Shown here: one piece after another, positions 17,342 through 37,659 of the stretch
Numbering within the stretch: the first letter of the stretch is position 1
Layout of the letters: every line of letters begins with the position of its first letter
Source: Thermomonas haemolytica
GTDB taxonomy: Bacteria; Pseudomonadota; Gammaproteobacteria; Xanthomonadales; Xanthomonadaceae
DNA: 64,000 nucleotides
Direction: 5' to 3'
Assembly: GCF_004346265.1 (NCBI RefSeq)
Contig: NZ_SMAP01000007.1
Location: 1 to 64,000 of the forward strand
Program-made: the position numbers and the translations under genes
Notes under the pieces: model-generated
The model's input: only the letters and a program-made list of their open reading frames with translations
What the model was told of the DNA's origin: nothing
Databases searched by the model: none

Positions 17342-17710
17342 TCAGCCCTGTCTACCCGGTGGCGGATCTTCCTCCGCCGCGGCAACCTCGCGCTGCAGGC
17401 GTTCGATTTCGCTGCGCAGCTGGTCGTATTCGCGCATTTTGCGGGCAAGGAACTGGCGCGTCAGGCGCGCCTTGGCCTCGATCCCGCGCGGCGTGAGCAG
17501 GTAGGCGTAGCCCAGCTTGTCGGGGTTGCGGCTGAAATTTCCGACTTTCACCCAGCCCTTTTCGATCAGGGCACGCAGGGCGTAATTCAGCTTGCCGAGC
17601 GATACCCCCGTGGCGCGCGCCAGCTCACGCTGGCTGGCCTGGGGCTCGGCCTGCAGCCGGCGCAGGATCGCCACGTGCAGTTCTTCCGATGTCTCGCCCA
17701 TGGCACCCAT
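17342..17710 (-). CDS. MarR-family EPS-associated transcriptional regulator
   Basis: Small winged-helix DNA-binding protein (122 residues from 17710, or 119 from the ATG at 17701). The helix-turn-helix [20 protein letters not shown] and the wing segment [20 protein letters not shown] match the regulator family named for its regular presence in exopolysaccharide loci. The C-terminal third (residues 80-115) is a charged coiled coil rich in Arg and Glu. It sits inside the locus between the O-ligase-like gene and tviB. I infer that it regulates the locus; its operator is not evident. Confidence 0.88.
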
Positions 17711-17791: not shown

Positions 17792-19168
17792 TCAGCCGCC
17801 GGGCGACGCATTTTCCAATGCCGCCGGAAACTGCGGCTCACGCTTGCGCGCTTCCCCCGTCGCCGCCAGCATCACCCCCGCCAGCGCGCCGCAGGTGGCC
17901 ATCAGGGTGAGCGTGCGCAGCGGATAATCCACCCACGAATGCGCCAGTACGGCCATGAGCGCGACCCAGCAGGCCGCCGCCAGCACGGCCTGGCGGCCTT
18001 CGCTGCGCTGGAGGCGCCCGCCGACCGCCAGCAGCAGCCCGACCACCGCCGCCAGCGCCAGCATCCCCAACCAGCCGCTGGTCATCCACCATTGCGCGTA
18101 CTCGTTGTGGGCATGATTGACGTACTGCGGCAGCTTCAGCGACAGCGGCGCCGCCTGCTCGAACGCGGGCACGAAACTACCTACACCACTGCCCAGCGGC
18201 GCCTCGGTCTTGCCGATGGCCAGCGCGGCGGTGGCCATCGTGTGGCGCAGTTCCTCCAGCGCATCCACTTCCATCCAGCCAATGCCGGCGCGAATGCCAA
18301 TCACCGCCATCACCAGGGCACCCAGCGCGACCACCACCAATCGACGACGGCGCAGGATCTTTCTCAGTTGCAGCAAACCGGTCATCACCAGCGCGACGGC
18401 CAATGCTGGCAGGACGATCACCATCCCGGCGCGGGATGTCGAGAGTGGTACTACCAGCAGCAGGAATACCGCCAGGCCCAGGTAACGCCAGTGATGATGG
18501 GGCGGCAATTCGCCGCGCAACTCGCGCAGCCGCGCCTCCGCGGCCAGGCCGAGCGCCAGCACCATGCCGATGATGCAGGCCGTGGCCTGGTGGTTGGTGT
18601 TGACCAGCAGCCCGCCGAAGCCGTTGCTGAAATCCTGGTACAGCCGCAGCGCGCTGTCCGGCGGCAGCCCGGCCTGGAAGAACGCGAAGGCCACGTTGAA
18701 CAGCACCAGCGCCAGCACGACCTGCAGCAGGGTGCGCCGTTGCCGCGGCTCCAGCGCGCAGGCAGCCAGGAAACTGGCCAGCGCCGGCAGCAGCGCCCAC
18801 AGCCCGCGCTCGGTGGCCGCGGGCGTGAGGCTCCAGTGGGGGTTGACCTGCACGCCAGCGGCCATCAGGTCCGCCGCCAGCGCCTGACGGGCGGGCGGCA
18901 GCAGCCAGAGCCCCTGCGGGATTGGCAACAACTGCACGGCTGGCACCAGCAGGATCAGCAGCGCCACCGCGATCCCGGCCTGCACCCAGCGCGACGCGCC
19001 GTCCGCCAGCAGCAGCCATGCTGCCAGCAGCAGCACCGGCAGCGCCAGCAGCTGCAACCCCTCATCGATACCGGTGTCATCGACGGTGACGCCACCGCCC
19101 AACCAGCAGGCCAGCAGCAGGATCGACAGGGCGGGAAGCAGGGCACCGCGGGCGCGTTCGATCATCAT
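17792..19168 (-). CDS. O-antigen ligase/polymerase-domain membrane protein (WaaL/Wzy_C type)
   Basis: Integral membrane protein of 458 residues with ten or more helices. The conserved Wzy_C core is visible: LLVNTNHQATACIIGMVLAL, VVPLSTSRAGMVIVLPALA, then the periplasmic loop with GSGVGSFVPAF and YVNHAHNEYAQWW (the HNxY signature). Family members either ligate polymer to lipid A core or polymerise repeat units. It lies with the export genes, separate from the putative wzy at 12831-14147. Either a ligase, or the true polymerase of an EPS module; sequence alone does not decide. Confidence 0.88.
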   Translation of the reverse strand: MMIERARGALLPALSILLLACWLGGGVTVDDTGIDEGLQLLALPVLLLAAWLLLADGASRWVQAGIAVALLILLVPAVQLLPIPQGLWLLPPARQALAADLMAAGVQVNPHWSLTPAATERGLWALLPALASFLAACALEPRQRRTLLQVVLALVLFNVAFAFFQAGLPPDSALRLYQDFSNGFGGLLVNTNHQATACIIGMVLALGLAAEARLRELRGELPPHHHWRYLGLAVFLLLVVPLSTSRAGMVIVLPALAVALVMTGLLQLRKILRRRRLVVVALGALVMAVIGIRAGIGWMEVDALEELRHTMATAALAIGKTEAPLGSGVGSFVPAFEQAAPLSLKLPQYVNHAHNEYAQWWMTSGWLGMLALAAVVGLLLAVGGRLQRSEGRQAVLAAACWVALMAVLAHSWVDYPLRTLTLMATCGALAGVMLAATGEARKREPQFPAALENASPGG

Positions 19169-19252
19169 CGTTCAAGCATATCCGGCAAGCCGCAGGATTG
19201 GCGACAGTCAGCACCCCACGACGCAACAAGAAACGACATCCCACAACGCAAA

Positions 19253-19279
19253 CAGGGCAGGCTTTGAAAGCCTGCCCTG
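19253..19279 (-). terminator. Strong hairpin downstream of the small secreted-protein gene
   Basis: CAGGGCAGGCTTT (19253-19265) and AAAGCCTGCCCTG (19267-19279) are perfect 13-base inverted copies around one base. The functional hairpin has a stem of about 10-11 pairs with a TTTGAAA-type loop. On the minus strand it is followed by TTTGCG. It ends the export-gene block before the O-ligase gene, so expression of the downstream genes may be reduced or separately driven. Confidence 0.65.
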
Positions 19280-19305
19280 CGGGAAGATCCCAAGCGGCGG
19301 AAAAA

Positions 19306-19728
19306 TCAGAAGTGACGGATGCTCGCGCTCAGCGGGCCGACCGGCACGTCCTTCTCGTTGTTGAGGACGGCGGCACCGATGGCGGCGACGCCGGCGATGA
19401 TGGCGGCATTGGCACCCGACGCCATGCCGTCATTGGTCCAGCCCGCCACCTTGCAGTCGCCCGGCACGGTGTACACGCCTGGCTGCTTCAGCTCCATCTT
19501 GCAGCCGTTCTTGTACACCAGCGTGGCCGCGGAGCCGGCGTTGACCATCACCTTCTCGCCCACCACGACCGGCTGGCCGCTGCTGGCATTCATGTAGTCC
19601 CCGCCGGTGCTGGTCATGGCCGAACCGGCATTGATCTGGATGACGATGCCGTCGTTTTGCTGCTGCGCAAAGACCGGGGCGGCGAACGCGACAGAAGCGG
19701 CGACGAGGGCGGCGGCGAACTTGGTCAT
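19306..19728 (-). CDS. Small secreted protein of the polysaccharide locus, unknown function
   Basis: 140 residues from the ATG at 19728 (AAGGA eight bases upstream). A clear Sec signal peptide, MTKFAAALVAASVAFAAPVF, has a probable cut after AQA/QQ. The mature part contains GQPVVVGEKVMVNAGSAATL followed by YKNGCKMEL and PGVYTVPGDC, a pattern that loosely recalls FecR-like beta domains. Its two Cys residues are placed to form a disulfide. A Gly/Ala-rich hydrophobic segment (ANAAIIAGVAAIGAAVL) near the C-terminus could anchor it in a membrane. I do not recognise the family. Confidence 0.75.
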   Translation of the reverse strand: MTKFAAALVAASVAFAAPVFAQQQNDGIVIQINAGSAMTSTGGDYMNASSGQPVVVGEKVMVNAGSAATLVYKNGCKMELKQPGVYTVPGDCKVAGWTNDGMASGANAAIIAGVAAIGAAVLNNEKDVPVGPLSASIRHF

Positions 19729-19828
19729 GGCAATCATCCTTGGTTTGGGGGTGTACCTGCAGGCAGAGGCTAGCAGCACCGGCATTTCAACGCAAGCGGC
19801 AAGCCGATGTTTTTCCCCTGACTTATGT

Positions 19829-21109
19829 TCAGGTTTGTGGCAGAAGCGTGAATCCGGTCACCCACAGTTCGCCCGACACCCGCTGCGCGGCGCCAGCGGG
19901 AACCGGATTCACCAGGCGCAGCCATTGTCCCGGGCAATTCGTCGCCGGCACAGTGAAGTCCATCTGGAACCGGGTCCAGCCCATGTTGCCCTGGAGCGGG
20001 TCGCTGCGCCCCAGGACCATGCCCGACCCGGCGCACACCACCTGCCACTGCAGGCCCATTTCGCTGCGCAGGGCCGTGGCCCGTGCACGGAAGCCGAGTC
20101 GATAGGCCCCCGGCCCGAGCAGCAGCGGTTGGCTGAGGCCGGCCTCCGGCACCCGCCGGTCGAGGAAGTTCAGATAGGCCGCCTGCCCGCGGATGCCGGC
20201 ATCCGGGACGAAATCCAGCAGCACGCCCGGCACCCGCTTCACGCGCCAGTCGAAGCCGGCATTCGTAGGCGTCTGGCGGAAGTCGCCGTTGTAAAGCAAC
20301 GGCAACCGGCCATCCGGCTTCGGCGCGCTGCTGGCCCAGCGCGCATAGGCCTCGCCCCAGCGGCCCTGCGCCATCAGGCTGTCCAGCCAGCGGTCGTATT
20401 CGTCCTGGCTCAGCCCACCCTGCGCCTGCAGGGCCTGCATGATGCGGCCGGCGGCTTCAGGATTGCCGCGCGTGGGGTGGCGCAATGCGGCCAGGGTGCC
20501 CTCCCGCCACGGCGGGTTTCCGGCCAGCATGTGGGCCAGCGCGTCCGCGAACGCCGGCTCCTGCGCCATCTGCACGAGGACCGGGTTGATGGCGGTGGCA
20601 CGGCTCGGCGACATCCGCAGCAGGCTGTCGATCTGCGCCAGGGCTGCGGCGTATTGCCCCTGCTGCAGGTAGTGCTGGGCCAGCCAGGCACGGCTGGGCA
20701 AGTCGCGCGGGGCGCGCTTGGCGGCGATCTGGTAGAGGCGCAGCGCCTGCGCCGGGTCACCTCGGCGCTCGGCCACCTGGGCCAGGATCCGGAACGCCTG
20801 CCCGCGCAACGGGGAATTGGCGAGCACCCGGCGCGCGCTGTCCTGTGCGGCCTGCAGATCGCCTGCGGCCAGCTGGCGCTCGGCCTGCGCCAACAGGGCC
20901 GCGGAAAACCCCGGCCGCCATTGCAGGGCCAGCGCTGGATCAGCGTCCGCGACGGCCTGCTCGGCACGCAGCTGGCCGTAGATCCGCCAGCCGGCCCAGA
21001 GAGCCAGGACCACGAGCACCGGCAGCAAGGCCTTGCGCCACGCCGGGCCCGCTGCGGTGGCACGCATCGGAAGCATCACTGGATTCGTACTCTTCGCGGT
21101 TGAACTCAT
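19829..21109 (-). CDS. Membrane-anchored TPR protein with C-terminal beta-sandwich-like domain
   Basis: 426 residues from an ATG that overlaps the upstream stop (ATGA). One membrane helix at about 25-45 (KALLPVLVVLALWAGW) would place the rest in the periplasm. Residues of about 65-200 are Ala/Leu-rich TPR-like helical repeats (for example RGDPAQALRLYQIAAKRAP and QGQYAAALAQIDSLLRMSP). From about 270 a different region starts with LLYNGDFRQ and continues with alternating strands and conserved Trp and Cys. It reads like a galactose-binding or carbohydrate-binding beta sandwich. Function is unassigned; scaffold for polysaccharide assembly is an inference from context. Confidence 0.8.
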   Translation of the reverse strand: MSSTAKSTNPVMLPMRATAAGPAWRKALLPVLVVLALWAGWRIYGQLRAEQAVADADPALALQWRPGFSAALLAQAERQLAAGDLQAAQDSARRVLANSPLRGQAFRILAQVAERRGDPAQALRLYQIAAKRAPRDLPSRAWLAQHYLQQGQYAAALAQIDSLLRMSPSRATAINPVLVQMAQEPAFADALAHMLAGNPPWREGTLAALRHPTRGNPEAAGRIMQALQAQGGLSQDEYDRWLDSLMAQGRWGEAYARWASSAPKPDGRLPLLYNGDFRQTPTNAGFDWRVKRVPGVLLDFVPDAGIRGQAAYLNFLDRRVPEAGLSQPLLLGPGAYRLGFRARATALRSEMGLQWQVVCAGSGMVLGRSDPLQGNMGWTRFQMDFTVPATNCPGQWLRLVNPVPAGAAQRVSGELWVTGFTLLPQT

Positions 21110-22548
21110 GGCGCTCCTTCCAGACGGATGCCGGTCACCAGCCAATAGCCGTCCCGCCAGTGCAGGCGCGCCAACAGCTGGCCGGCGGCGGGCGAAGCCC
21201 CGGCGACCGCAAAGGCGGAGCCCAGCTCCGCGCTGTCGTTACCGATCTGCCATTGCGCCTGCAACAAGCGCACGCGCCCGCCCGCGTGCAGGCGACGACG
21301 CAGTTGCTCGGCCTCGTCCTCGACCCGCGGGCTGTTCCAGATCGGAGGCGAGGCCCGCCCCGGCGACTGCATGAAGCGCAGCAGCATCTCGCCGGCCTGG
21401 CGCGCCGCCTGGAGGCGGGCGAAATCAGGCGCGCCGCCATCACTGGCCGCCGGTGCCGGCATCGGGGACTGTGCGACGGCCGGGGCAGCGGCGGCAACCG
21501 GCACCGGTTGCAGCGGCTGTCCGGCATTCGCCACGACCGGCGGAGGCGATGATGGCGGGGCCGCGACAGAAGCCGACGCCGCAGGCCGGGCCGCCGCAGT
21601 GTCGCGCACGCCGGGGGATGCAGTCTCCGGCGCACGCGCGACGGCCATGTCAGCCCTGGATCGGCCTGGCCTGGACGTGGCGGGGCTGGAGCCGCCAGCC
21701 ACGACTGCCGGCGCGGGCCGCGCGGGACGTCGCTCGGCCGCCACCCTCGCCTCGCGGCGCGGTGCGGGGCGGGCCGCCGGCTGCAGCCGTTTGTCCGCTG
21801 TCCTGCCATCCGCCCCACGCGACTCACCGCGCGCCGGCCTGCGCGGCACGCTCAGCGCCAGTTCCGCATCGTCAGGACTGCCCGCGGCCTGCGCCAGCGT
21901 GCCCGGGGCTGGCTCCTCCCAAGGCTCCGGGCTGCGCGCCATGTCGCGCAGTGCCAGCAGCGCCAGCACCACGCACAGCGCCAGCAAAGCCAGGATCGGA
22001 AGCCGCCGGCGCCAGCGCACCTCGGCCGCGACCGGCTCGGGCAGCGGCCGCCACCCCGGCACCAACGCCGGACGGCTGCCGCTGTCGAATACCTCCGATG
22101 GGCGCGCATTGCGCAGCGCCTCGTCGTAATCGCGCCGGCGCTCCGGGCTGCGCAGGCGGTTCCAGGCGGCGTTCACCCGCGCGGCGAAGGCGGCATCCTC
22201 CTCGCTGTGCGGGCGGTCCGGGTGCAGCCAGGACTGCAGCAGGCGATGGTGGGCCTTGATCCGCTCGAACGGCGCATCCGCAGCCACCCCGAGCATGCGG
22301 TAGGCGTCGGCCTGCGGGAAGAACAGCACTTCGCGCACGTAGAACTGCGCCGCCTCGCGCAGGCGGGATTCGCTCTCCCCGAACGTCGCCATCGCCTGGG
22401 CCAAAGTTTCGGGCGCCGCGCCGGCGGCGATCGCCAGCAACGGCTCCATCCCGTCCGGTAGCGGCTTCTGCCGCAGCAGGTGCCGCTCCCCCGGCGCCTG
22501 CAGCAGCGCCAGTGCCCATTCCAGCGCGCTCCCCTTCGCGCTGTCCAC
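21106..22548 (-). CDS. J-domain-containing single-pass membrane protein
   Basis: 480 residues starting at a GTG three bases after the wzc stop. Residues of about 81-150 form a J domain: YRMLGVAADAPFERIKAHHR with the essential HPD at 109-111. One membrane helix at about 183-200 (LPILALLALCVVLALLAL) is followed by a long Ala/Pro/Arg low-complexity linker (to about 370) and a compact C-terminal domain with several Trp. Topology would put the J domain in the cytoplasm, where it could recruit DnaK, and the tail in the periplasm. Position between wzc and the TPR gene, with four-base coupling, points to a role in polysaccharide export. Confidence 0.82.
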   Translation of the reverse strand: MDSAKGSALEWALALLQAPGERHLLRQKPLPDGMEPLLAIAAGAAPETLAQAMATFGESESRLREAAQFYVREVLFFPQADAYRMLGVAADAPFERIKAHHRLLQSWLHPDRPHSEEDAAFAARVNAAWNRLRSPERRRDYDEALRNARPSEVFDSGSRPALVPGWRPLPEPVAAEVRWRRRLPILALLALCVVLALLALRDMARSPEPWEEPAPGTLAQAAGSPDDAELALSVPRRPARGESRGADGRTADKRLQPAARPAPRREARVAAERRPARPAPAVVAGGSSPATSRPGRSRADMAVARAPETASPGVRDTAAARPAASASVAAPPSSPPPVVANAGQPLQPVPVAAAAPAVAQSPMPAPAASDGGAPDFARLQAARQAGEMLLRFMQSPGRASPPIWNSPRVEDEAEQLRRRLHAGGRVRLLQAQWQIGNDSAELGSAFAVAGASPAAGQLLARLHWRDGYWLVTGIRLEGAP

Positions 22549-22551
22549 CGG

Positions 22552-24858
22552 TCAGCCCTTGGTCAACCGCGGCTTGCCGCCATACGCGTAGTACGAATCG
22601 TAGCGGTAGCCGTAGCCATAGCCGTAGCCGGCGGTGCGGGCGTCGTACTTGGTCAGCAGCCCGCCAACCACGCGCGCACGCGCCGCCAGCAGGCGCTTCA
22701 GGGCCGACTGCGCCGCACTGATCTTGGCCTTGGCGCTGGGGATTACCATCAGAGTGCCATCGACCGCATTGCTCAGGATCGGCGCATCCGCCAGCCCCAG
22801 CACCGGCGGGCCGTCGAGGATCACGTGGTCGTAGCGCTCGCCGCCGACGGTCAGCAGCGAGATCAGCTTGGAGCCGGACAGCAGCTCGGCCGGATTCGGC
22901 GGCAGCGGCCCGGCCAGGATCACCTGCAGGTCTTTGTCTCCGGTCTCCTGCACCGCGTCGCTGAACGCACAGGCGCCGGCCAGCAGGTTGCTGAGGCCGA
23001 ACTCCGGGCGCAGCCCCAGGGTCTTGTGCAGCGAGGGATTGCGCAGGTCGGCATCCACCAGCAGCACCCGCTTGCCGAGCTGTGTCAGGTTGCGCGCCAG
23101 CGCCAGCGCGGTGGTGGACTTGCCCTCGCCCGGCCCGCTGCTGGTGACCAGCAGGGTCTTGGGCACGCCGTGGTCGGTGGCGAACTGCAGCGCAGTGCGC
23201 ACCGAGCGATAGGCTTCCGAGAACGCCGACTGCGGGTTGGCCGCGACCTCCGCGATGTTGTCCTTCGGGCCCAGCTTGGGGATGACCCCCAGCACCGGCA
23301 GCTTCAGCTTCTGCTCGATGTCCTCCGGGGTCTTCAGGGTGTCGTCGAGGAACTCCAGCAGGAACGCCAGCAACACGCCGAGCACGCCGCCCAGCAGAAG
23401 GCCGATCGCCAGGTTCAGGGTCAGGCTGGGCTTGAAGCGGCTGGTGGGCACTTCCGCGCGATCGATGATGGAGATGTTGTTGGCGCGCACGTCGCCGGCC
23501 ACGCCCACCTCCTTGTAGCGCTGCAACAGACCGTCATAAAGCTGGCGGTTGGTATCCACCTCACGCTTGAGGATGTTGTACTGGATGCTGCGCCCATCCA
23601 CGTCCAGCGCCTGCGTGCGCAGCGCCGCGATCTGGCCGGTGAGCATCTGTTCCTGGCGCACGGCGGCGTCGTACTCGGCCTTGACCGAGGCGCGGATCCC
23701 GCCCAGCTCCGTGGCGATCTGGCGATCCAGCTCGTCGATCTGGCTCTTGAGCTGCAGCATCTCCGGATAGTCCGGCTTGAAGGTCTGCAGCTTCAGCTGG
23801 TACTGCGCCTGCAGCTGCCCTTTCTGCTGCTGCAGCGCCCGCACGTTGGAGTTGCTCAGCATGTCGGGCGGCATGGCGCCGCTGGATGCCTGCTGCCAGC
23901 GCGCCTGCGCGCGGATGCGCTGGTCCTGCGCGGTCGCCAGCGCAGCGTTGAGCTGGGTGAGGTTCTGCGCCGCCAGCGACTGCCCCTGCTCGCCGGTGTT
24001 GACCAGGCTCTCCTTCTGCGCGAACTCGACCAGCTTGCGCTCGGAGTCCTCCAGCTTGGCCTTGGTCAGCCGCAGCTGATCCTCGAGGTAGGTCTTGGCG
24101 TAGGAAGATGCGCCGAAGCGGCGCTCCAGCCCGGCCGCGATATAGCCCTCGGCGATGGCATTGGCCGCGCGCGCGGCGAACTCAGGGGAAGTGCTGTCGA
24201 AGTTGATGCGCACCAGCCGTGAGTTGCGAATCGGTTCCACGCTCAAGCTGTCAGCGATGAATTTGACTGCTTCCTGGAAGTCAGTCCGCGAAGAAGCCGA
24301 TGCATTGCCCGGCTCTCCCGTTGCGCCTTGTTTCTTGCGCTTGGGCTTGAGCAGATCCAACATCCGCCCCAGCCAGCCCTCGTCGGCAAGGCGCTCCAGT
24401 TCCTTGGGATCCAAGTTCAATTCATTCGCAACGCGCTCGGCCAGGGAGCGGCTCTTGATCAGTTCGTATTGCGTCTGCAGGAATGTCGGATCCAGGCCTC
24501 GCTCATCTCCTGGCTGCAAACCATCGACCTGGATGACCCGCACTCCTTCCTTGTCGAGCTGGAGGACCGTGGTAGCCCTGTAAACAGGAGTGGCGAGCAG
24601 GGTCACCAGCAGCGCCAGCGCCACCACCGCGGCGAGCACGCCGATGATCAGGCGCCGCCGCTTGACCAGGACGTGCCAGTACGCCAGCAGGTCGATTTCG
24701 TCGTCATCCCGCCGCTGTTCGTCCTGCAGCTCCAGGCTGAGCATCCCGCCAGGCGCGCGCGGATGCGCCAGCGCGCCTGCAGGCTGCCGCGGGTCATGCC
24801 GGGCCGGGAGGTGGCTGTCATCACCAGTAGGCCCGGCGGGCAATCGATCGTCAGTCAT
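22552..24858 (-). CDS. wzc: Polysaccharide co-polymerase with tyrosine autokinase domain (Wzc/ExoP type)
   Basis: 768 residues. An unusually long polar N-terminus precedes a Wzz domain whose first helix is at about 70-89. A long coiled-coil periplasmic region and a second helix (LNLAIGLLLGGVLGVLLAFL) follow. The C-terminal BY-kinase carries Walker A SSGPGEGKSTTALA, Walker A' VLLVDADLRNPSLH and Walker B HVILDGPPVLG. The tail GYGYGYGYRYDSYYAYGG is a Tyr cluster for autophosphorylation, which in studied homologues controls oligomer state and chain length. It is 19 bases after wza. No phosphatase gene sits beside it. Confidence 0.95.
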   Translation of the reverse strand: MTDDRLPAGPTGDDSHLPARHDPRQPAGALAHPRAPGGMLSLELQDEQRRDDDEIDLLAYWHVLVKRRRLIIGVLAAVVALALLVTLLATPVYRATTVLQLDKEGVRVIQVDGLQPGDERGLDPTFLQTQYELIKSRSLAERVANELNLDPKELERLADEGWLGRMLDLLKPKRKKQGATGEPGNASASSRTDFQEAVKFIADSLSVEPIRNSRLVRINFDSTSPEFAARAANAIAEGYIAAGLERRFGASSYAKTYLEDQLRLTKAKLEDSERKLVEFAQKESLVNTGEQGQSLAAQNLTQLNAALATAQDQRIRAQARWQQASSGAMPPDMLSNSNVRALQQQKGQLQAQYQLKLQTFKPDYPEMLQLKSQIDELDRQIATELGGIRASVKAEYDAAVRQEQMLTGQIAALRTQALDVDGRSIQYNILKREVDTNRQLYDGLLQRYKEVGVAGDVRANNISIIDRAEVPTSRFKPSLTLNLAIGLLLGGVLGVLLAFLLEFLDDTLKTPEDIEQKLKLPVLGVIPKLGPKDNIAEVAANPQSAFSEAYRSVRTALQFATDHGVPKTLLVTSSGPGEGKSTTALALARNLTQLGKRVLLVDADLRNPSLHKTLGLRPEFGLSNLLAGACAFSDAVQETGDKDLQVILAGPLPPNPAELLSGSKLISLLTVGGERYDHVILDGPPVLGLADAPILSNAVDGTLMVIPSAKAKISAAQSALKRLLAARARVVGGLLTKYDARTAGYGYGYGYRYDSYYAYGGKPRLTKG

Positions 24859-24877: not shown

Positions 24878-25600
24878 TCAGGGGAAGAACCAGCGGAACG
24901 CACCGATCGCCGGGGCGGTCTCGATGAAGTGGCGGAACGCGGACTTGCTGCCGGACTGTTCGACCACCACGATGTCGTCACCGTACACCTGCGGGTCTTC
25001 GACGATCCCGCGGCGCACCTGGCGCAGGTCGAACACCGCCGCCATCCGCTTGCCGTTGACCTGGCGCATCAGCACGATGCCGCCGAGGTCGGCCACCTTG
25101 TTATCCAGGCCGCCGGCCAGCGCGATCGCCTGCAGCAGCGTGGTCTTGCCCGTGATCGGATAGATCCCCGGCTTGCTGACCGCGCCCTCCAGGGTGATGC
25201 GCTGGCTGGTGTATTCCTTGATGAACACAGTGACCTGCGGGTTCTGCAGGTAGCCATCGGCGTAGCGCCTGGCAAGTTCGGCCTCCAGTTCGGGCACGGT
25301 CTTGCCGCCGGCCACCACCATGCCGATCAACGGCAGCGAGATCTGCCCGTTGGAGTTCACCCGCACTTCCTTGTCCAGGTCCTGCACCCCGAACACGCTG
25401 ATGTCCAGCAGGTCCTGGGCGCCGATGCGGTAGTCGGTCGCCCCTTCGTAGGCACCGGAAGCCGTGGTGGTATCGGGCGGCGGCAGCGCGTTGCCGGCGA
25501 CCGCATTGGCCTGCTCGCGTCGCGCGCCGCCATCGCTTGCGCATGCGGCCAGGCCCAGCGCCAGCATCAAGACCAACAAGAAACGCAACCCGTTGCGCAT
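24878..25600 (-). CDS. wza: Outer-membrane polysaccharide export lipoprotein (Wza/GumB family)
   Basis: About 240 residues from the ATG at 25600 (GAGAGGA upstream). A lipoprotein signal ends in the lipobox LAAC, so the Cys at about residue 20 would be acylated. A polysaccharide-export domain (YRIGAQDLLDISVFGVQDL) and an SLBB domain (ITLEGAVSKPGIYPI, LLQAIALAGGLDNKVADLGG) follow. It is much shorter than E. coli Wza (about 380) and close to GumB of Xanthomonas. First gene of the locus. The frame open to 25777 is upstream non-coding sequence. Confidence 0.93.
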   Translation of the reverse strand: MRNGLRFLLVLMLALGLAACASDGGARREQANAVAGNALPPPDTTTASGAYEGATDYRIGAQDLLDISVFGVQDLDKEVRVNSNGQISLPLIGMVVAGGKTVPELEAELARRYADGYLQNPQVTVFIKEYTSQRITLEGAVSKPGIYPITGKTTLLQAIALAGGLDNKVADLGGIVLMRQVNGKRMAAVFDLRQVRRGIVEDPQVYGDDIVVVEQSGSKSAFRHFIETAPAIGAFRWFFP

Positions 25601-26013: not shown

Positions 26014-26247
26014 TCAGCGTTCGCCGCGATGAGTGTCCTGATCCGCCTCGCTCGTCGCGTCCGCGCGCTCGCCTGCCCCTTGCGCAAAGGCGCGCGAAGC
26101 CTGGCGCAACACATCGAGATGCCTGCCGAAGTTGCGGCAGCCGCTGCACAGCAGCAGGTGCGCGCGCAGGGAGATGGTCGCCGCCAGCGGCAGCGAATGC
26201 TCCTGGGCTTCGGACATCAGACGCGTGGCCTCCTGGCAGTTCAACAT
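26014..26247 (-). CDS. Small zinc-finger anti-sigma factor (zf-HC2 type)
   Basis: Soluble 77-residue protein that would bind and hold the sigma factor encoded just upstream. An N-terminal Cys (MLNCQEATRLMSEAQE) and an H-x3-C-x2-C cluster in RAHLLLCSGC make a putative zinc site of the ZAS type. No membrane helix is visible, unlike many anti-sigma factors, so the signal is probably sensed in the cytoplasm. The ATG at 26247 overlaps the end of the sigma gene by seven bases, so the two are coupled. The tail is hydrophilic and probably disordered. Confidence 0.82.
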   Translation of the reverse strand: MLNCQEATRLMSEAQEHSLPLAATISLRAHLLLCSGCRNFGRHLDVLRQASRAFAQGAGERADATSEADQDTHRGER

Positions 26248-26855
26248 GACGCCCCCCGGACGAACCAGTGGTTTTCCAGGCACTCGCGCAGACGCAGGCG
26301 CGCGCGGTGCAGGATGACATTGACATTGCTGACGCTCAGGCCCAGCGCGCCGCAGATTTCAGACGTTTCCAGCTCCACGAATTCGCGCATCATGAACACT
26401 TGCCCCTGCCGCCCCGGAAGATGGGCCAGGCAGGCCTCGAACACGCGCCAGAATTGCGCGTTTTCAAGCGCATGCTGGGGTTCGTCCCAACCCCGCGGCA
26501 GCTGGTCGCGCCGCCAGTGCCCGTTGCGCGCGAACAGCATCTCCAGCACCTGCGTATCCTCCTCTTCACCGGCCAGCTGGCTGGCTTCAACCAGACGGCT
26601 GCGCTGGCGTAGCGCATCCGCGATCTTGTTCTTGAGGATCGTGAACACCCAGGTCTTGAACGCCGCACGCCCGGCGAACTTCGCGGCATTGGCCATCGCG
26701 CCGATCAATGCCTCCTGCACCGCGTCTTCGGCCAGCTGCGCATCGCCCAACTGCAGGCTGGCAAAACGGACCATCTGCTGCCGTAGCGCAGACAGGAAGG
26801 CCGCATCGTGGAATACCCCTGCGGCCACGGCCGGGCCTTCCCCTTCCGCAACCAT
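26241..26855 (-). CDS. ECF-type sigma-70 family RNA polymerase sigma factor
   Basis: 204 residues from the ATG at 26855, with GGAGGAG six bases upstream; the frame open to 27038 is upstream sequence. Region 2 is visible in AEDAVQEALIGAMANAAKF and FKTWVFTILKNKIADALRQR. Region 4 follows in MREFVELETSEICGALGLSV and NVNVILHRARLRLRECL. The linker between them is long (about 50 residues, with RNGHWRRDQLPRGWDEPQ), which resembles one ECF subfamily that is paired with short zinc-finger anti-sigma proteins. Regulon not identifiable here. Confidence 0.88.
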   Translation of the reverse strand: MVAEGEGPAVAAGVFHDAAFLSALRQQMVRFASLQLGDAQLAEDAVQEALIGAMANAAKFAGRAAFKTWVFTILKNKIADALRQRSRLVEASQLAGEEEDTQVLEMLFARNGHWRRDQLPRGWDEPQHALENAQFWRVFEACLAHLPGRQGQVFMMREFVELETSEICGALGLSVSNVNVILHRARLRLRECLENHWFVRGASC

Positions 26856-27133
26856 GGCATCTCCTCCCTCCATCCAGCCCTCCTGTCGACCGCCTCGCGC
26901 ACCGCCGGATGGCCGGCCCTCGGATACGTCTCGCCGTTCCCCTGCAGGGAGCGTCCGGCACCTCGCCTGACGCGGCCCAGTATGCGCGCATGCCGGATGC
27001 TGGCGCGCGCTGCAGGCAGGCGCAACGGTCGCAACCATGCCGCTTCTCCCGAGGGACCCAGTCGCTTGGTCGCGCTGGGCGACGGTTTCTTACAGGAGGC
27101 CCCCGGCCGGCCTGCACAAACCGGGCACAAAAC

Positions 27134-36401: not shown

Positions 36402-36881
36402 TCAGAGCCGCCCCTGGCGCACCCGTTCGAGGATCCCCTGCGCGGCGGCATCCACCAGCCGGAAGGCATGCTCGAAGTCGCGCGCGGTGCCGTAGTACGG
36501 GTCGGGTACGTCCTTCTTGCCCAGCCCGGCCCACTCCAGCAGCAGCTCCACCTGCGCGTGCGAGGTGCGTGGCTTGCGGATGCGGGCCTCGTGCAGGATG
36601 GTGCGGTCGGCGCACAGCACGAGGTCGAAGGCATCGAAGTCCTCGGCCGCCAGGCGCCGCGCGCGCAAGCCGGAAATATCGATCCCGTGCCCGGCCGCAC
36701 AGGCGATCGCGCGCGGGTCCGGGGCCTGGCCCAGGTGCGAATCGCCGGTGCCGGCCGAATCCACCCGCACCCGCTCACTCAACCCGGCCGCGTCCAGGCG
36801 CGCGCGCAGCACGCCCTCGGCGGTCGGCGAGCGGCAGATATTGCCCAAGCACACCATCAGGATGCCGATCGGTCTAACCAT
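36402..36881 (-). CDS. Low-molecular-weight protein tyrosine phosphatase
   Basis: 159 residues. The P-loop [14 protein letters not shown] holds the CX5R(S) catalytic motif near the N-terminus, and the general acid is in VPDPYYG. Members either act on housekeeping substrates or, as Wzb, dephosphorylate Wzc-type kinases. The ATG at 36881 overlaps kdsB by eight bases. It lies 11.5 kb from wzc, so a link to the polysaccharide locus is only a possibility. Confidence 0.94.
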
Positions 36882-37659
36882 GCGTGTTCCCTGCGTATTG
36901 CTCCGTGTAGATGCGTTCGGCGCGCACGAGATCCTCCGGCGTATCCACGCCCGGCGGGAACGGCGACGGCGCCAGTGCCACCGCGATCCGCCAGCCGGCT
37001 TCCAGCGCGCGCAGCTGTTCCAGCGCCTCCACCTGCTCCAGCCGCCCCGGCGGCAACGCCGCGAACGCGCGCAGCGCCGCCACCCGGTAGCCGTAGATGC
37101 CGATGTGGCGCAGCCATTCCCCTTCCGGCATCGCGCTGCGGTCACGCGCGAACGCATCGCGCGGCCACGGCACCGGCGCGCGGCTGAAGTACAGCGCATC
37201 GCCGCTGGCGGCGCGCACCACCTTCACCGCGTTCGGATCGAGCAGGGTTTCGACCTCCGTGATCGGCGTCGCCAGGGTGGCGATGCCGGCGCCGCTGGTG
37301 GCCACCGTGCGCGCCACGCAGGCGATGCCATCGGCCGGCGCGAAGGGCTCGTCGCCCTGCAGGTTGACCACGATCGTATCGTCGGCCCAGCCGGCAATGC
37401 GCGCGCATTCGGCCAGGCGATCGGTGCCAGATGCATGCGCGGGCGAGGTCATCGCCACCTGCACGCCGCTGCCCTCCAGCGCCCCGACGATGCGGTCGTC
37501 GTCGGTAGCCACCCACACTGCACGTGCGCCGGCGGCCAGCGCGCGCCGGGCCACGTGCAGCACCATCGGGAGGCCGCCGATCGTGCGCAGGGGCTTGCCC
37601 GGCAGGCGCGAGGCGGCAAAGCGCGCGGGAATCGCGACGATGAACTCGGGCGTGTGCAT
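36874..37659 (-). CDS. kdsB: 3-deoxy-manno-octulosonate cytidylyltransferase
   Basis: Activates Kdo to CMP-Kdo for lipid A-core synthesis. The start [19 protein letters not shown] and NLQGDEPF are family signatures; 261 residues is slightly above the usual 250. The ATG at 37659 is chosen because the upstream extension has no family similarity. A 78-base gap separates it from lpxK; no ycaR/Trm112-like gene lies in it. Confidence 0.96.

Follow-up and report, generated by a model that had tools for sequence, protein, structure and literature searches.

In a 64,000-nucleotide stretch of Thermomonas haemolytica DNA (the window), a membrane protein with a J domain, called J below, is encoded directly behind the polysaccharide export kinase gene wzc and ahead of a TPR protein and a small secreted protein. 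The observation is confirmed, and since the arrangement recurs over many families it is neither a chance nor a local one. We propose that the block is an accessory module of the Wza/Wzc polysaccharide exporter, in which J would dock on the N-terminal tail of Wzc and recruit DnaK to remodel the export machine; we put the probability of this reading at roughly 0.45, somewhat short of even odds. The features on which the argument draws are collected in the table.

Table. Features of the J block and its neighbours, with positions in the window
Feature	Position	Strand	Basis
wza, outer-membrane polysaccharide export lipoprotein	24878..25600	-	Poly_export 2.7e-24 and SLBB; start set at lipoprotein signal MRNGLRF...LAAC
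wzc, chain-length protein and BY-kinase, Tyr-rich C-terminus	22552..24858	-	Wzz, GNVR, AAA_31; eps_fam tyrosine autokinase domain above cut-off
Wzc N-terminal cytoplasmic tail, about 66 residues, LP motifs, goes with J	24661..24858	-	Wzc N-terminus comparison
J protein, 480 aa: N-domain, J domain, TM, linker, NTF2-like domain	21106..22548	-	Pfam DnaJ above cut-off; orthologues
Conserved N-domain of J, no known family	22315..22548	-	Alignments; dN/dS 0.2-0.4
J domain, HPD at 22216-22224	22123..22308	-	H, P, D invariant in clade; dN/dS mostly 0.13-0.3
TM helix of J	21946..22002	-	Hydropathy 2.67 over residues 183-201
Periplasmic NTF2-like domain of J (predicted)	21109..21432	-	AlphaFold2 pLDDT 91; Foldseek; SnoaL/DUF4440 in relatives
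TM-anchored TPR protein	19829..21109	-	TPR models above cut-off; orthologues
CBM-like C-terminal domain of TPR protein	19832..20326	-	AlphaFold2 pLDDT 91.8; Foldseek CBM4, CBM22, CBM16; two invariant Cys
Small secreted protein, two conserved Cys, hydrophobic C-terminal stretch	19306..19728	-	Signal peptide; alignments
Hairpin closing the block	19252..19280	-	13-bp stem, z -4.95
Wzy_C family membrane protein (O-ligase or polymerase)	17792..19168	-	Wzy_C 3.8e-16

A Poly_export protein adjoins a BY-kinase here, which identifies the locus as a Wza/Wzc export operon. The J gene starts with GTG 3 nt past the wzc stop, and its own stop shares four bases with the ATG of the TPR gene as ATGA, the overlap reported in the first-pass annotation. 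The strong hairpin that had been placed at the end of the block was recovered by direct folding, in which the 81-nt stretch containing it reached -37.3 kcal/mol (z -4.95; 0 of 200 shuffles equally good); it is absent from the output of a consensus terminator scan. A MarR-family EPS-associated regulator (TIGR04176, 2.5e-43) is encoded at 17342-17710, just downstream of the ligase gene. Upstream of wza, inspection by eye of positions 26014-27038 gave an ECF-type sigma factor and, behind it, a small protein containing Cys, a possible zinc-finger anti-sigma factor. The sole low-molecular-weight tyrosine phosphatase found in the genome, a candidate Wzb, lies at 36402-37199, about 12 kb from wzc and outside its operon.

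The initial description of J as a membrane protein with a cytoplasmic J domain, an intact HPD motif and a periplasmic tail holds up well. Its J domain matches Pfam DnaJ (1.6e-9; 38.2 bits against a cut-off of 27.8) and aligns with solved J domains, that of E. coli DnaJ among them, with the HPD at residues 109-111. The single TM helix is preceded by RWRRR and followed by a Pro/Ala-rich stretch, so that by the positive-inside rule the N-domain and the J domain are predicted to lie in the cytoplasm. The N-domain, of about 78 residues, is conserved in the alignments and matches no known family, the Pro/Ala-rich linker evolves fast, and the J domain is the most constrained part of the protein (for dN/dS see the table). 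A reading of J as a pseudogene or spurious ORF is ruled out by this purifying selection and by the homologues. PF00226 was the sole match at E values up to 1, with no DnaJ zinc-finger or C-terminal substrate domain, and on the cut-off, the HPD and this absence J would belong to the class C J-domain proteins. The modelled C-terminal domain retrieved NTF2-like proteins in Foldseek at TM-scores of about 0.5, chiefly the CaMKII hub and also Rv3472 and ketosteroid-isomerase-like folds; in the window it has no convincing profile match, so that its NTF2-like status comes from the predicted fold, and in relatives it matches SnoaL/DUF4440, with DUF4440 above cut-off in one locus only (L044). Three short J proteins behind wzc (L118:9836-10291, L116:9721-10485, L117:9628-10251) keep the HPD and have no NTF2-like domain, which suggests that the cytoplasmic part of J can act alone.

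Genomes were searched with alignments of the N-domain plus the J domain, and matches near 1e-13 that covered the J part only, being ordinary DnaJ proteins, were excluded from the counts. J is present in 70 of 397 Lysobacteraceae genomes, including all 25 listed Thermomonas, and a class-wide sample yielded a member that also matches the N-domain in 21 of 369 genomes. Each of the 38 HPD-bearing members examined shows the order Wza-Wzc-J, in most cases with the TPR protein, the small protein and the Wzy_C/ligase protein after it, and Wzc stands directly upstream of J at every Lysobacteraceae J locus examined. Other gammaproteobacterial families have the same order (L089, L091, L092, L094, L096, L106, and L107 up to its contig end), while two loci from Pseudomonadota outside Gammaproteobacteria (L116, L117) read wza-wzc-J-TPR, with the small protein and the ligase on the other strand. 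Some Lysobacteraceae, none of them among the J-bearing genomes, have wza-wzc-TPR-ligase without J. Conservation of the block beside wzc in related genomes, on which the first-pass annotation had staked its proposal, is thus strong over many families, and the fixed gene order rules out chance co-location of its genes.

The partner in this arrangement also differs with the presence of J. Wzc proteins encoded beside J carry a long cytoplasmic N-terminal tail with an LP-type motif (in the window, MTDDRLPAGPTGDDSHLPAR), whereas J-less Wzc runs almost directly into TM1. The median tail measures 65 residues in 29 J-linked Wzc against 36 in 27 J-less ones (p 7e-5 on family medians, without phylogenetic correction), and 27 of the 29 carry the motif as against 1 of the 27. 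This correlation has few independent events behind it; the starts were chosen by eye, and the motif was defined once the sequences had been inspected. One Wzc (L195), excluded from these counts as its contig ends where J would be, has an intermediate tail of 49 residues with LPAP present. In a Wzc tree built without the tails, the J-less Lysobacteraceae form a single clade (100/100) nested among J-bearing Wzc, so that most simply J and the tail would have been lost together, once, in this family. The co-occurrence lends indirect support to the earlier suggestion of a control over Wzc/Wza assembly.

Of 57 members, counting that of the window, 38 have the HPD motif intact. The other 19 have lost it; they form eight more divergent families (f23, f37, f53, f63, f65, f76, f90, f102) and carry QPD, RQD, YQE, WRE and the like in its place. 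As the sample is weighted towards Lysobacteraceae and the profile used for searching came from HPD-bearing members, these numbers should not be read as frequencies. The presence and absence of the motif can be accounted for by two changes on the tree. In the clade of 38 Wzc-operon members to which the window belongs, the entropy of H, P and D is zero. Among the HPD-less members the H and P columns come 60th and 65th out of 69, and Y82, R83, L85, G86, A127 and an aromatic residue at 128 are still conserved. The part that contacts DnaK thus appears to have been released in this group and the fold kept. The change of H to Q is seen in L090, L097 and L098, and this substitution abolishes the function of the membrane co-chaperone DjlA (PMC10754441; PMC11709261). 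The HPD-less members are mostly in contexts other than a Wzc-linked one, yet in f37 and f102 J stays within the wza-wzc operon, and in L094 (f102) it is fused to a response regulator. The loss of the HPD from most homologues, named beforehand as telling against a DnaK co-chaperone, is therefore not what is seen, although the motif has gone from the divergent families; such a role is plausible and under selection in the window's clade and is not universal in the family, which leaves the first-pass proposal partly supported.

DjlA of E. coli and Caulobacter is a co-chaperone of the same membrane-anchored type as J, linked via its HPD and DnaK with capsule synthesis and with a trans-envelope complex: it boosts the trans-envelope pump AcrAB-NodT (PMC10754441) and loosens the contact between IgaA and RcsD (PMC11709261). 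J is not DjlA itself. DjlA runs from an N-terminal TM through a TerB-like domain to a J domain at its C-terminus (PMC11709261), whereas in J the J domain is N-terminal and the TM and NTF2-like domain follow; the window protein has no TerB match and scores 10.8 bits against the DjlA model's cut-off of 162. With this precedent, our preferred reading is that J is a one-pass membrane co-chaperone whose cytoplasmic N-domain and J domain may dock on the long Wzc tail, and whose J domain would recruit DnaK to loosen or reset Wzc contacts, either in oligomer or kinase cycling or in assembly with Wza. We favour it because Wzc is directly upstream of J in 38 of 38 HPD-bearing members, because the HPD is invariant in the clade and the J domain the most constrained part of J, because the LP-motif tail co-occurs with J, and because the genome has one full-length DnaK and the operon no Hsp70. 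Against it count f37 and f102 with their operon-borne J and lost HPD, the absence of J from some genomes that retain wza-wzc-TPR, and the few independent events, eye-picked starts and post-inspection motif behind the tail correlation.

The main rival, which we consider unlikely, is that the J fold serves as a docking scaffold that dispenses with DnaK: its N-domain and J-like domain would bind Wzc, or an AAA ATPase in fused forms, and the protein would link the kinase to the periplasmic NTF2, TPR and CBM domains, DnaK being minor or limited to some lineages. The J core kept in eight families that lost the HPD, two of them with a wza-wzc operon, speaks for it, as do the J-like fusions to an XrtA-type ATPase, a response regulator and FHA domains; a pure scaffold, however, would not need the H, P and D that are invariant in the 38 Wzc-linked members. 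Both activities may have a place in one history, in which a DnaK recruiter docks on the Wzc extension to cycle or assemble the exporter and elsewhere the J fold lost its HPD and became a pure scaffold. We offer this history tentatively; if true, the J family preserves the passage from recruiting a chaperone to serving as a scaffold.

The J-like proteins without HPD occur in several settings. In L097:8756-11416, L099:8272-11955 and L104:8859-11750, the N-domain and J-like domain are fused behind a full-length XrtA/PEP-CTERM-type ATPase (TIGR03015) and followed by an NTF2-like end, apparently in two copies in L099, with the HPD lost in all three. At L093:2847-8496, L095:12256-17946 and L099:12184-18031 a J-like protein adjoins large SLBB and YjbH-type export genes, which belong to another type of polysaccharide export; in L093 and L095 it is joined by a homologue of the small secreted protein, in L099 by a different small secreted protein. 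Another (L169:7071-8849) carries two fused FHA domains and lies close to a GspA/ExeA-like AAA gene, with no obvious polysaccharide locus around it. Four genomes (G184, G326, G432 and G350, with loci L103, L105-L107 and L162-L168) hold several J-like paralogues each, all without HPD. Two N-domain plus J-like units lie in tandem in L106, and in L108, L166 and L167 the end is of a different kind, possibly periplasmic-binding-protein-like.

As for the other two proteins of the block, the TPR protein scores above cut-off with several TPR models, and the carbohydrate-binding-like C-terminus ascribed to it at first pass is borne out by a predicted fold whose best Foldseek matches are CBM4, CBM22 and CBM16 (TM-scores 0.6-0.7), with no Pfam CBM match. 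The two Cys invariant in the alignment of this domain fit a periplasmic site. The small protein has the expected signal peptide, two Cys that are almost invariant and a hydrophobic stretch at its C-terminus; the FecR-like pattern also attributed to it is loosely right at most, and FecR membership was rejected, since none of 21 members matches Pfam FecR at E values up to 0.5. Its nearest model is the NCBIfam LapA retention module NF033682, which 12 of the 21 match weakly (best 6.8e-7) and for which the window protein, at 17.9 bits against 50, stays below the cut-off.

With the Wza/Wzc export systems of the group 1 type the window shares the Poly_export lipoprotein and the BY-kinase with its Tyr-rich tail, and it adds J, the TPR-CBM protein, the small secreted protein and the long Wzc N-terminal tail. 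XrtA/PEP-CTERM EPS loci likewise have a TPR protein, and their TIGR03015 ATPase is the one fused to distant J homologues; the window's TPR protein matches their PrsT model (1.8e-13) at 49.3 bits against a cut-off of 312, with a TM anchor and a CBM-like end where PrsT is a lipoprotein, and its small protein has, by inspection, no PEP-CTERM tail. YjbH-type export loci have divergent homologues of J and of the small protein next to YjbH and SLBB export genes; unlike in the window, their J is without HPD, and the 20-kb stretches examined there showed neither a full Wzc kinase nor a TPR homologue.

Two further explanations fare less well. J might be a local quality-control or targeting chaperone, holding DnaK at the membrane so that nascent Wzc, Wza, TPR or small protein does not aggregate before insertion or export. 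Caulobacter DjlA reduces AcrA aggregation and binds outer-membrane proteins (PMC10754441), but such a role leaves unexplained both the conserved periplasmic NTF2-like domain and the J-linked Wzc tail, and we judge it improbable. Less probable still is a DjlA-like regulation of the locus by J: DjlA raises capsule synthesis via Rcs (PMC11709261; Genevaux 2001, as cited in PMC517821), and J would sense the envelope state and alter operon transcription through a partner such as the MarR-type EPS regulator. Against this, MarR genes lie near some J loci only, and the fixed position behind wzc speaks rather for the export machine.

Wza/Wzc systems, J proteins and the link of DjlA to capsule are known already; a protein built like J and kept in place behind wzc is apparently undescribed, as a full-text search on J domains with Wzc, EPS, exosortase or NTF2 and on Thermomonas EPS, with subscription papers mostly outside its coverage, found no description. 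In the co-chaperone reading that we prefer, the NTF2-like domain on its long periplasmic linker may sense or hold partners, namely the TPR-CBM protein and the small secreted protein, and the TPR-CBM protein probably touches the growing polymer. To our knowledge, the assembly, cycling and reset of Wzc with Wza are not settled in the field, and a conserved, operon-encoded candidate DnaK recruiter together with a co-occurring Wzc tail offers a concrete handle on them. Lineages that kept the HPD and lineages that lost it amount to a natural experiment on the J fold with and without DnaK, and the intact J domain behind Wzc suggests that a general chaperone may be recruited to the export machine.
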